In this document: positions 2,745-8,425 of the stretch, piece after piece
Numbering within the stretch: the first letter of the stretch is position 1
How the letters are laid out: each line of letters starts with the position of its first letter
Assembly: GCA_030043155.1 (NCBI GenBank)
Contig: JASHYE010000381.1
Coordinates: 1-18,719, forward strand
Length of the DNA stretch: 18,719 nt
Direction of reading: 5' to 3'
DNA from: Candidatus Acidiferrales bacterium
Lineage (GTDB): Bacteria > Acidobacteriota > Terriglobia > Acidoferrales > UBA7541
Made by a program: the position numbers and the translations under genes
The notes under the pieces: model-generated
Databases searched by the model: none
What the model was told of the DNA's origin: nothing
Seen by the model: the letters and a program-made list of their open reading frames with translations, nothing else

Positions 2745-2924
2745 ATGTCCGAAGACTCAAGCTCGGGCTCGAGGGCGCCCGATTCGCCTCCGGCCGCCGA
2801 TCGCCGGAAGCCGTACGTAAAGCCAGAAATCATCTCTGAACCGATTTACGAAACCATGGCTCTCGCGTGCGGCAAAGTACCCGGTCAAAGCTCCGCCTGC
2901 AACGCCGCGCCGCGCCGTTCCTGA
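2745..2924 (+). CDS. Small Cys-containing peptide, possible RiPP-type precursor
   Basis: A 59-codon gene starts at ATG 2745 with a strong GCGGAGG ribosome-binding site seven bases upstream (2735-2741). It stops 16 bases before the next gene. The N-terminal part is Ser/Pro/Asp-rich (about residues 1-20). The middle has RRKPYVKPEIISEPIYET (about 20-38), which contains Y-x-x-P-x-I, and the tail is MALACGKVPGQSSACNAAPR with cysteines at about 42 and 52. There is no signal peptide and no membrane segment. A leader with YxxP followed by a short Cys-containing tail resembles precursors of ribosomally made, modified peptides whose leaders are recognised by PqqD-like domains. No modifying enzyme lies in the window, so this is a hypothesis. 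That it is translated at all is supported by the ribosome-binding site and tight spacing. Confidence 0.6.
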   Translation: MSEDSSSGSRAPDSPPAADRRKPYVKPEIISEPIYETMALACGKVPGQSSACNAAPRRS

Positions 2925-5852: not shown

Positions 5853-7739
5853 ATGAGAAAAATCTCGCTCGCTTTCGCCGCGGTCGTTTTTTCGCTCGCA
5901 ACTTTGAATATTCTTCCCGTCGCTCGCGCGGCGCAGGATTCCAAGTCCGCAACTCTCCCGGTGAGCGCTGCGCGCCAAAAAGCGCAGGCCGATATCAGCC
6001 TCGGCGACGTCGCCAACCAAAACGGCACCACCGACGAAGCCATCGCCGACTACAAAGCCGCCGTCATCGCCGATCCCAGCGATACCGATGCCCACACGAA
6101 ATTCCTGCGCGCTTACAACGAAAAGGTCTATGCTTTCCTCACCCCCAAGAAAATCAAGAACGCGAAGAAAAAGCCCACCAAGGAACAGATTGCAGCGAAG
6201 CAGAAGAAGGATCAGGCAAAGCGCGCAAAGCTCGAAGCCAAGTACACCAAACTGCTTCTCGCCACTTATGATGGCTGGATCAAGAAAAATCCGCAGCGGC
6301 CCATGTTCTACTGGGGCAAAGCCCAGATTCTCGAAGACGAGGACAAAAATCCCGAAGCCATCGCCTTGCTCAATAAAGCACTCTCGATTGATCCTTCTTG
6401 CGCGCCTGTTTGGGCCGATCTTTCCGATCTTGCCGCGACTGCCGGCGACGTTTCAACGCAGCGCGCCGACGCCGAAAAAGCCCTCGCCATCGATCCGGGC
6501 GACGCCTCCGGCGTGTTTTTCCAATACGCTCTGACGTATCTCACAGCCGATCCTCCCAGGTATCGTCAGCTCGTCGAAGGCCGCGCCGCAAAATATCCGG
6601 ACGGCTTGGAATTCCTCCTCGTTCTTGCTGCGGAAAATGCTCCTACTGTTGCAGAGGAGGAAGCCGTCTACGAAAAGGTGTACCAAATCTACGGGCCCAA
6701 TTCCGCGAAGCCTTCCGGTGATGTAATTGAGATCATGGTTGATCTCTTCAACCTATACGCACGGACCGATTCCGTCAAAGCGCTCGCCTTTGCGCAGCAG
6801 ATGCGAAAGGCCGAAGCCGAAGAGCTGGCCAAGAAAGCCGCCGCTGAAAAGAAGACTCAAACGGCCAGCAAAGATCCCAAGAAGGCTGGCGCCAAACGTC
6901 CGAAACACACTTGGGAAGCCATCTCTGATTTTCAGGAGAGCCTCGTCGACGCTCAGTCTCTTATCGCCCAGAAAAAATATGCCGGCGCTCTCACGTTGCT
7001 CGACAAGGTGAACTTCAGCGATCAAAACGATCCGATCTCCGACGTCGAGCAGACCCCTTACGATCTCACGAAAGCTGAAGCGCTCGCCGGAAGCGGCGAG
7101 AATCAGAAAGCGTACGACGCAGTCAAAACAGCTCTCTTGCCGCAGCCTGACGCCTCGCTTGAAAACGCGCTGCTCGTTTACGGCGCAAAGCTTGGCAAGA
7201 CCCCGGCCCAGATTGACGGAGACATCTGGCAAACGCGCGAATCCAAAGCCAAGCCGATGGTGCCCTTTGATCTCAAGCAGTACGTCACCGACAAAGAGAT
7301 CAAACTCGCCGATTATCGCGGCCAGGTGGTCCTCGTGAATTTCTGGTTCCCGGGTTGAGAGTGGTGCCGCGCGGAGTTTCCGCGCTTGGAGCAGGTTCTC
7401 GATAAATACAAGGCGCAGAATTTTCATGTCGTCACCATCAACGTCATCGGCAGCCAGGCCGAAGGCGCGGTAAAAATCATGAGCAATTACAGCTTCGTTG
7501 CGCTCAAGAATCCGGGCGGCGATTGGGATTGGGCAGGAAAAAACTACGGCGTCCGCGGCACGCCCACCAGCTTCCTGATCGATCCCAAGGGCAACATCGT
7601 CTTCAACGTGCCCGGACTCGAATCCATCGAATCCACGAAGCTCTGCGACGAAGAAGTCGCCGGCCTGCTCAAATGGTCTCAGAGCGCTAGCGCCAATTCC
7701 GATCGCGCCGCGGCGCCCGCCGCAAAGACCCAGCCGTGA
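5853..7739 (+). CDS. Exported TPR-thioredoxin (TlpA-like) selenoprotein, read through an in-frame UGA
   Basis: Translating from ATG 5853 and reading the TGA at 7356-7358 as selenocysteine gives 628 residues. Residues 1-27 are a clear Sec signal peptide (MRKISLAFAAVVFSLATLN, then ARA-A). Residues about 45-440 are TPR-like helices (for example NPEAIALLNKALSIDPSCAPVWADL) with two Lys/Ala-rich charged stretches (about 90-130 and 310-350). Residues about 465-620 form a TlpA/thioredoxin domain: IKLADYRGQVVLVNFWFPG, then U502-E-W-C505, RAEFPRLEQVL, and GVRGTPTSFLIDPKGNIVF with cis-Pro571. The fold is complete only if the TGA is decoded. Stopping at the TGA would leave the TPR part plus half a thioredoxin strand. 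A SECIS-like hairpin follows directly. The protein should be a periplasmic thiol-disulfide oxidoreductase. A DsbD-alpha-like gene comes next on the same strand. The alternative is a single Cys-to-stop mutation, which the hairpin makes less likely. Confidence 0.85.
7356..7358 (+). other. In-frame TGA predicted to encode selenocysteine
   Basis: The TGA falls at residue 502, exactly the first position of the thioredoxin CxxC active site, giving U-E-W-C. The upstream residues (VNFWFPG) and downstream residues (RAEFPRLE) match the TlpA active-site surroundings, and the frame is open for 127 codons after it, to TGA 7737-7739. Confidence 0.82.
7359..7392 (+). promoter_or_regulatory. Bacterial SECIS-like hairpin
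   Basis: Bases 7369-7375 (GCGCGGA) and 7379-7385 (TCCGCGC) are perfectly complementary and enclose GTT (7376-7378). Opening the A-T closing pair gives six G-C pairs with an AGTTT loop. The loop G lies 18 bases after the TGA. Known bacterial SECIS elements are hairpins just downstream of the UGA with a short loop containing G/GU at about this distance; E. coli fdhF is the model. A weak extension (CC 7367-7368 with GG 7388-7389, past a two-base bulge) is possible. SelB would bind here to deliver Sec-tRNA. Confidence 0.75.
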
Positions 7740-7814
7740 GCCCAACGAGTGGGCTTCGGATCGCTACATTAGGCTTATGCCGCGTGGTAGGTCGCCGCAA
7801 AAGTGCTTTAATTG

Positions 7815-7863
7815 TCATTCCGAGCCAGCCCGCCACGGCGGGCGCAGCGAGGAATCTGCAGTT
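7815..7863 (+). repeat. REP-like intergenic palindrome (CATTCCGAG...CGAGGAATCTG type)
   Basis: The outer arms ATTCC (7817-7821) and GGAAT (7851-7855) are inverted, and an inner GC stem GCCCGC (7828-7833) pairs with GCGGGC (7838-7843) around CACG. The text 'GTCATTCCGAG ... GCGAGGAATCTGCAG' is a pattern I recognise as a dispersed intergenic element in several environmental bacterial genomes. Only one copy is in the window. It lies between the selenoprotein and the DsbD-alpha-like gene, where such elements often stabilise or end transcripts. Copy number elsewhere in the genome is not visible. Confidence 0.6.
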
Positions 7864-7876
7864 AGCGTTTTTTTTC

Positions 7877-7881
7877 AGGAG
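7877..7881 (+). promoter_or_regulatory. AGGAG ribosome-binding site before a possible ATT start
   Basis: AGGAG lies seven bases before ATT 7889-7891, which is in frame with the DsbD-alpha-like gene and immediately precedes its signal peptide. No ATG, GTG or TTG occurs in frame between GTG 7784 and the mature domain, so a rare ATT start is the best fit to both the ribosome-binding site and the signal peptide. Confidence 0.4.
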
Positions 7882-7888
7882 AATTCAG

Positions 7889-8425
7889 ATTCCTCATCGG
7901 TTCGCTTCTCGGAATAGCAGTTGCATCGTATTTTGCAGCACCCTGCTGATCTTAGCGGCAGCGCTGCCCCCCGCTTCCCGCGCTCAGGAAGCGCCTCCTG
8001 CGCCCATCCACTGGACCGCCGCGCTTTCGTCCGCTGCCCACGCCTTGCAATCCGGCCAGAAAGTCACCGTCGCTCTCACCGGCGACATTGACGCTGGCTG
8101 GCACGTCTACGCGTTTCCTCAACCTCCTGATTCACCCATTATTGCCACGCAAGTCACTGTGCCCGAAGGCCAGCCATTGTCTCTCTCCGGAGAAATTGCT
8201 CCGCCCAAAGCCGAATCGCTCATGGATCCCACAACGGGCAAAGAGACGAGCGTCTACACCAATTCCGTCACGATTAATCTGCCCTTGCAGGTCGCCCATA
8301 AAGCCCATGCAGGCAAGCAGGACCTCGAAATGGACGTCCGCTATCAAGCCTGCAACAACCGCCTCTGCCTTCCTCCTCGCACCGATAAAGTCACACTCCC
8401 GGTCGAAATCTCCTCTCACCGCTGA
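7889..8425 (+). CDS. Exported DsbD-alpha-like (disulfide corrector) domain protein
   Basis: The frame is open from GTG 7736 but the 5' part crosses the REP-like palindrome, so I start it at ATT 7889, giving 178 residues. A signal peptide follows: IPHRFASRNSSCIVFCSTLL, then ILAAALPPASRAQ. The mature part is a single N-terminal DsbD-type immunoglobulin-like domain: IHWTAAL, VTVALTGDIDAGWHVYAFPQP and YQACNNRLCLPP, with Cys155 and Cys160 as the expected redox pair ahead of the conserved LPP turn. In DsbD this domain receives electrons from the membrane part and passes them to periplasmic partners. Here no membrane or C-terminal thioredoxin domain is attached. Lying downstream of the TlpA-like selenoprotein suggests it is a partner in the same periplasmic thiol relay (inference). 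The start codon is uncertain: GTG 7736 and GTG 7784 are alternatives, but neither gives an N-terminal signal peptide. Confidence 0.8.
   Translation: MPHRFASRNSSCIVFCSTLLILAAALPPASRAQEAPPAPIHWTAALSSAAHALQSGQKVTVALTGDIDAGWHVYAFPQPPDSPIIATQVTVPEGQPLSLSGEIAPPKAESLMDPTTGKETSVYTNSVTINLPLQVAHKAHAGKQDLEMDVRYQACNNRLCLPPRTDKVTLPVEISSHR

Follow-up and report, generated by a model that had tools for sequence, protein, structure and literature searches.

Bacterial selenoproteins in which selenocysteine (Sec) occupies the first position of a UxxC motif on a thioredoxin fold are well documented. Table 1 of PMC13188914 includes among them a Prx-like thiol:disulfide oxidoreductase (PF00578), a thiol-disulfide isomerase-like protein (cd02966) and the Redoxin family (PF08534), in agreement with an earlier note on the DNA analysed here, which had stated that such proteins are known. 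That table, in a 2026 inventory which counts 119 families and subfamilies, contains several UxxC TlpA/Redoxin types and names no fusion to tetratricopeptide repeats (TPR); the terms TPR, tetratricopeptide and Acidobacteri have 0 occurrences in the main text of the inventory. The impression recorded in the earlier note, that a TPR architecture was not familiar as a described selenoprotein, matches the inventory to this extent. In the sections cited here, earlier papers attribute 3 families and 4 selenoproteins to Acidobacteria as of 2006 (PMC1794560), describe other selenoprotein fusions (PMC2398784), and give as a general rule for such genes a bacterial SECIS (bSECIS) directly downstream of the TGA, a stem-loop just 3' of the codon with a G in its small apical loop (PMC1088965). 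Our literature search, with subscription papers, preprints and supplements outside its scope, found no description of a TPR-fused UxxC family.

Here we describe a gene in a stretch of 18,719 nucleotides of DNA from Candidatus Acidiferrales, analysed at its full length and called the window below. The gene very probably encodes a periplasmic, TPR-carrying thioredoxin-fold selenoprotein of the ResA/TlpA-like reductase class, a judgement that is drawn from sequence and concerns the protein itself, apart from the redox relay proposed below.

An in-frame TGA at the active site of a TPR-thioredoxin protein

The reading frame opens at ATG 5853 and runs for 501 codons, ending VNFWFPG, to a TGA at 7356-7358. 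Beyond this codon it reads EWCRAEFPRLEQVLDKYK... and continues for 126 more codons (127 codons if the Sec codon is counted) to a terminal TGA at 7737-7739. Under the standard code the same frame yields a 501-aa ORF (5853-7358) and a 117-aa fragment starting from TTG 7386. The gene is laid out as follows.

5853..7739, + strand: whole gene, predicted exported TPR-TlpA selenoprotein of 628 residues with Sec at residue 502 (frame reading, homologues, Pfam, AlphaFold2 model)
5853..5930, + strand: probable Sec-type signal peptide, residues 1-26, ending A-R-A (judged by eye)
5967..7247, + strand: TPR/helical-repeat array, residues about 39-465 (Pfam TPR, model helices 39 to 465, Foldseek)
7245..7685, + strand: ResA/TlpA-type thioredoxin domain, residues 465-611
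7356..7358, + strand: TGA read as selenocysteine (U502), first UxxC position (same codon in two close relatives, L001 and L002, and at 18 further acidobacterial sites)
7365..7367, + strand: putative resolving Cys505 (TGC) of UxxC (invariant alignment column C505)
7563..7565, + strand: cis-Pro571 in the GTPTSF loop (invariant alignment column P571)

The earlier note had placed the TGA at the first Cys of a CxxC motif (U-E-W-C) after VNFWFPG, followed by a 127-codon continuation with the GTPTSF cis-Pro loop. On re-reading, the sequence is as it claimed, the cis-Pro codon lying at 7563-7565, and the truncated TPR protein and 117-residue fragment that it expected from standard gene calling were reproduced.

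Pfam placed TPR_16, TPR_14, TPR_11, TPR_19 and TPR_8 above their gathering scores in the window protein and also reported AhpC-TSA/Redoxin. An AlphaFold2 model, for which the TGA was entered as Cys, had a mean pLDDT of 87.9 and a pTM of 0.83, with mostly low pLDDT over residues 1-32. In this model the TPR part forms a folding unit complete in itself, which Foldseek matched to the TPR arrays of OGT/SPINDLY at low TM. The C-terminal domain combines the features that define the TlpA/ResA type: a thioredoxin fold, UxxC in place of CxxC, and the cis-Pro.

Conservation of the TGA and of the frame beyond it

A scan of reference genomes returned two loci, L001 (77% in the best segment) and L002 (76%), both from Candidatus Acidiferrales MAGs, and both carry TGA at the aligned codon. 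That both relatives retain this very codon shows the observation to be more than chance. The earlier note had proposed asking whether homologues have U or Cys at this position, and the alignment gives both answers: the position is the catalytic Cys in homologues, and TGA in L001 and L002.

More distant relatives were sought with the window protein as query. At E 1e-15 it had matches, some of them Cys forms, in 15 of the 396 phylum genomes, and at 1e-25 in 4 of the 95 genomes from the order. Within one class, a profile search matched 34 of 38 genomes at 1e-20, with no stop in many of the hits; 30 rows became loci, and the active site was read in the fetched loci. UxxC or CxxC was located by pattern, and every TGA-flagged row of the phylum, order and class searches was followed up. 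The TGA falls on the first UxxC position in 21/21 sites, namely the window, L001, L002, 11 more, two in L076 and five in L108-L112. In 12 loci re-read for stops, none other occurs within 100 codons downstream, and the next stop lies at or beyond the gene end. One further TGA-flagged locus, L059, was rejected; it has Cys at the active site, and its TGA is the terminator only. In the relatives read as DNA, the unrelated frameshifts and stops that the earlier note had named as signs of pseudogene decay are absent, and both the TGA and an open frame are kept.

Substitution rates were estimated by the Nei-Gojobori method. Before the TGA, dN was 0.150 for window-L001, 0.141 for window-L002 and 0.205 for L001-L002; over the 108-110 codons after it the same pairs gave 0.027, 0.084 and 0.106, so that dN falls past the TGA in 3/3 pairs. 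The corresponding omega values were 0.243, 0.128 and 0.154 before the TGA and 0.038, 0.096 and 0.162 after it, a fall in 2/3 pairs, the exception being L001-L002. The 11 codons right after the TGA show 0 synonymous changes in all pairs, and the remainder has a dS of 0.77-1.06.

Since the window is a single metagenomic contig, a sequencing or assembly error converting TGC to TGA might be invoked for it. The same codon stands in the same place in the separate records L001 and L002 and at 18 more sites, and we regard an error in the window as having negligible probability. As an explanation for the family it is excluded.

A covarying hairpin downstream of the TGA

The segment that follows the TGA can fold into a hairpin.

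7369..7385, + strand: bSECIS-like hairpin with a 7-bp stem GCGCGGA/TCCGCGC and loop GTT (conserved apex GGAGTT) (pairing, covariation)

The loop starts 17-18 nt after the TGA, and the element has the form given in PMC1088965, a stem-loop whose small loop at the apex contains a G. The earlier note had suggested a bSECIS prediction near 7356-7400, and what emerged at 7369-7385 is a bSECIS-like hairpin that covaries across the family. Rfam at gathering cut-offs gave 0 matches in the window.

In the register used for the family, columns 14-19 after the TGA pair with columns 25-30. An alignment of 14 sites has 98.8% of cells paired, with double changes at three pairs; across 19 divergent sites 98.2% of 114 cells are paired, and 21 double-change cells are spread over four of six pairs. 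Covariation over the 19 sites was 0.467 vs 0.222 (sd 0.031) in shuffled alignments, and 0/500 shuffles scored as high. When the partner strand was slid by 1-3 columns as a control, 28.9-64.9% of cells were paired. The covariation links the third base of a Pro codon (Ser in L111) with the second base of an Ala, Val, Glu or Arg codon. Both L076 sites were excluded from the 14- and 19-site alignments, having 3 and 2 of 6 pairs in the fixed register and 7- and 6-bp stems in a shifted one.

Cys homologues provide a comparison. In the same register, 31 of them form 0-4 of 6 pairs; a row with Ser at this position, L036, was kept outside the Cys counts and has 3 of 6. With any register allowed, the best stem averages 6.4 bp at TGA sites (at least 6 bp in 15/16) and 4.7 bp at Cys sites (6-7 bp in 6/31). 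The mean folding energy of nt 7-36 is -12.2 kcal/mol at TGA sites vs -5.1 kcal/mol at Cys sites. Resampling with the protein and local codon use held fixed reached the observed pairing in 0.5-5% of cases for the 14 sites; when the two L076 sites were scored in the fixed register, the figure was 85%. Because codon choice can thus yield the observed pairing, single hairpin sites are unconvincing alone and it is the sites as a group that make the case; within its own flanks the window hairpin has a z of only -1.83.

Taken together, the conserved TGA and open frame in relatives and the covarying hairpin support the proposal of the earlier note that 5853-7739 encodes one 628-residue exported selenoprotein with a TPR array.

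Database relatives are split at the site of the TGA

A protein search scored 7996 candidates sharing most words with the query, at lengths of 0.55-1.75 times its own, and listed 64 homologues, the window's own product among them. Of these, 56/64 end at FWxP[G/S]. Every one of the 54 other listed relatives at or above 45% identity closes with FWxP plus one final residue, which is G except in P0041, where it is S; the remote P0061 (27%) likewise has FWFPG as its last residues. The TPR-TlpA proteins P0057-P0060 do read through; they are remote (29-33%) and have the active site CGPC; among the 54 close relatives, within the 7996 scored candidates and this length range, there was no Cys version. 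Because most relatives are known as protein alone, the identity of the stop as TGA is known only for those whose DNA was read. Searching with the downstream 126 residues returned 24 proteins of 83-124 residues, 57-92% identical, all 24 of which start after the Sec codon; 11/24 lie on a contig equal in size to that of a truncated relative, and 2 are annotated "thioredoxin-related protein". Among the 60 records of a plasmid search, none reached 80% query coverage. In the public databases that were searched, this family stands in two pieces, cut at the recoded stop.

This split is exactly what standard calling and the databases would also give if the TGA were a real stop, leaving a 501-residue TPR protein and a thioredoxin part that is decaying or separately translated from TTG 7386; omega, moreover, is about equal before and after the TGA in one of three pairs. 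Such a reading is nonetheless very unlikely, given that the TGA takes the first active-site position in all 21 sites read, that the 12 re-read loci have no other in-frame stop within 100 codons downstream, that dN is low after the TGA in all three pairs, and that the hairpin covaries. A fragment started separately would, in addition, be missing both the UxxC and the strands with which the fold begins.

A different proposal is that the UGA acts as a selenium-dependent switch, so that selenium shortage would give a periplasmic protein made of the TPR part alone, and an ample supply the full reductase. In its favour, the TPR part folds as a complete unit in the model, and the lack of a listed Cys version in the 54 close relatives is what would be expected if the dual meaning of the codon were kept on purpose. 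We nevertheless consider a switch unlikely: a function of the short form would be hypothetical, some truncated product is to be expected whenever a bacterium expresses a selenoprotein gene, and L039 and L040, both Cys paralogues, dispense with the TGA codon.

Sec, Cys and Ser forms across the phylum

Related TGA genes were found in 14 genomes of the phylum, 3 of which also have either a paralogue with Cys or Ser or more than one Sec copy. Cys paralogues lie alongside TGA forms in the same genomes in the case of L037 in G244 and L039 in G449, and in G452 the Cys form was the only one found. The paralogue L036, alongside TGA forms in G205, has Ser at the Sec/Cys position (FWNPGSGTC) and possibly an altered or inactive active site.

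The count per genome reaches at least 4 TGA sites in G205 and three in G449. On the G449 contig C65, downstream of the L041 gene, locus L076 adds two more TPR-TlpA genes (at 7516 and 10083), both with an in-frame TGA in UxxC (UEFC and UGPC) and a GGAGTT hairpin. Five more TlpA-like genes, L108, L109 and L110 in G205, L111 in G158 and L112 in G076, have the TGA exactly in UxxC, in the motifs WATWUGPC, WATWUVPC, FFPTUGPC and FATWUGPC, and the same hairpin.

Pfam TPR matches are above cut-off in the window protein, L041, both L076 proteins, L039 and L037, and below it in L040, L023, L027 and L034; the remote TGA relatives L022, L024, L025, L026, L030 and L035 had no Pfam TPR match. The TPR fusion is not established radiation-wide, because in several scanned relatives Pfam TPR is sub-threshold or absent. 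In a tree of 25 thioredoxin domains (without P0057-P0060), 6 changes are required to account for the Sec label, and supported branches force at least 2 of them; the tree gives no direction to these changes.

Selenocysteine machinery in the genomes of relatives

The survey of Sec machinery covered genomes of relatives rather than the source genome of the window; in the window itself ARAGORN found no tRNA. The two nearest genomes, G001 and G002, both have a tRNA-Sec with anticodon TCA, SelB (371 bits and 366 bits, respectively) and SelA (563 and 578 bits). SelD was above cut-off only in G002 (361 bits), with sub-cut-off matches only in G001, a MAG. The SelD match of G002 (L017) contains one in-frame TGA and is probably itself a selenoprotein.

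Thirteen TGA genomes were surveyed (G001, G002, G205, G382, G376, G244, G166, G092, G158, G106, G296, G260 and G449). ARAGORN found tRNA-Sec (TCA) in 11 of the 13, G244 and G092 being the ones where it was missing, and SelB was found in 12 of the 13, all but G244; genome completeness was not given for these counts. SelA was present in 11/12, with G449 outside the count and no match at cut-off in G106, and it was also present in G076, a fourteenth TGA genome. Two selA matches above cut-off occur in each of G205 and G260; G205 also has two selB matches, and G260 two ARAGORN tRNA-Sec genes (L088, L100). Matches to RF01852 of 47-52 bits (L005, L006, L097-L099 and L101) were dropped as tRNA-Sec, ARAGORN reading them as tRNA-Ser(TGA), as was L096 in G149 (58.6 bits), which ARAGORN reads as tRNA-Ile. 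The machinery is not specific to TGA carriers, because SelA occurs in 250/396 genomes drawn from the phylum, SelB is present in G452, where only a Cys form was found, and G134, with a Cys-form match, has tRNA-Sec and SelA.

Readthrough by itself would fit the conserved frame even if the UGA were decoded as another residue, through a variant code or Trp suppression. This is extremely unlikely, since TGA also serves as the terminator of this same gene (7737-7739) and of L001 and L002, since the position is the catalytic Cys in homologues, and since tRNA-Sec and SelB are found in 11/13 and 12/13 of the TGA genomes.

We infer insertion of Sec because of the conservation, the covariation and the machinery in relatives. 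SelB bound to the hairpin at 7369-7385 would deliver Sec-tRNA(UCA) to the UGA at 7356, and decoding of this codon would produce the 628-residue chain instead of only the 501-residue truncated one.

Neighbouring genes and a possible periplasmic relay

Another gene follows on the same strand.

7736..8425, + strand: single-domain DsbD_N (nDsbD-like) gene with a CNNRLC cysteine pair (PF11412, 58.9 bits; longest ORF, true start probably later)

A DsbD_N gene also adjoins in L001 and L002, and another lies beside the Cys paralogue of G449 (L083). No DsbD_N was recognised next to the remaining TGA copies, where the neighbourhood was read at the level of ORFs and several contigs are short. A receptor gene comes next after the DsbD_N gene in the window and in L001 and is absent from the L002 ORFs of at least 150 aa. 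DsbD_TM had 0 matches among the seven window ORFs scanned. The genomes G001 and G002 encode DsbD_TM proteins of 293-328 aa, which we take to be CcdA-sized, and no longer DsbD_TM frame.

Elsewhere in the window, 2745-2924 (+) encodes a 59-residue peptide ending ...KPYVKPEIISEPIYETMALACGKVPGQSSACNAAPRRS, which L002 also has in conserved form, flanked by the same pair of genes. The peptide resembles a RiPP-type precursor, next to an FAD oxidoreductase, and had 0 NCBIfam or Pfam matches.

After export, as fold and motif suggest, the protein would work as a ResA/TlpA-like disulfide reductase in which Sec502 makes the nucleophilic attack and the thiol of Cys505 resolves the intermediate, with the TPR array probably docking a partner or client. 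Electrons might pass from a CcdA-type membrane protein to the UxxC domain and on to the nDsbD-like neighbour or to client disulfides, a path proposed because of the DsbD_N neighbour and the CcdA-sized DsbD_TM proteins. Fold and motif support the reductase class; we infer the partner, direction and client. That the soluble modules of DsbD are encoded here as separate genes forming a relay is suggested by gene order and homology only, and we give it slightly less than an even chance.

Discussion

The findings add a selenoprotein family, with an architecture that the main text of the 2026 inventory does not name, in a major soil phylum. They may also be part of a larger picture, which we offer tentatively and think somewhat improbable as a whole: a phylum-wide radiation of exported Sec-TlpA proteins, several per genome, in which the TPR-fused clade of the window gene keeps Sec and, together with an nDsbD-like protein encoded apart from it, forms a selenium-dependent periplasmic relay, a DsbD-type system in split form, the UGA perhaps serving also as a selenium-sensed switch. 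The covarying hairpin provides an acidobacterial SECIS consensus (GGAGTT apex) usable to find more such genes, and the Sec, Cys and Ser paralogues that share genomes constitute a natural test of Sec retention in thiol-disulfide exchange outside the cytoplasm.

The UxxC thioredoxin fold itself is already known, and the TPR-fused family may be described elsewhere or under another name. With the UxxC selenoproteins tabulated in PMC13188914 the window protein shares a thioredoxin-type domain and Sec in the first position of UxxC; a TPR fusion is not among the names in that table, and its representatives, such as HEU0032618.1 of the Redoxin family, may be relatives. No NCBIfam model reached its cut-off on the window protein. 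Two of these models describe thioredoxin-fold selenoproteins with motifs unlike that of the window, NF041054 (ResA-like, WAxxUGC) and NF053656 (TUGYCR (seleno)protein), and the scores of 26.3 bits (cut-off 300) and 18.7 bits (cut-off 100) place the window protein outside both. The ResA, TlpA and DsbE models were likewise below cut-off, at 58.1 of 170, 51.3 of 230 and 38.7 of 123.15 bits.

DsbD joins nDsbD, a CcdA-like core and a thioredoxin domain, and the window likewise has thioredoxin-fold and nDsbD-like domains side by side. Unlike DsbD, the window has no DsbD_TM among the seven ORFs scanned, and its thioredoxin part carries TPR and Sec, so the relation is one of analogy. Compared with the membrane-anchored or periplasmic reductases ResA, TlpA and CcmG (DsbE), the window protein differs in having Sec for the first Cys, an FPGUEWC context and a large N-terminal TPR array.
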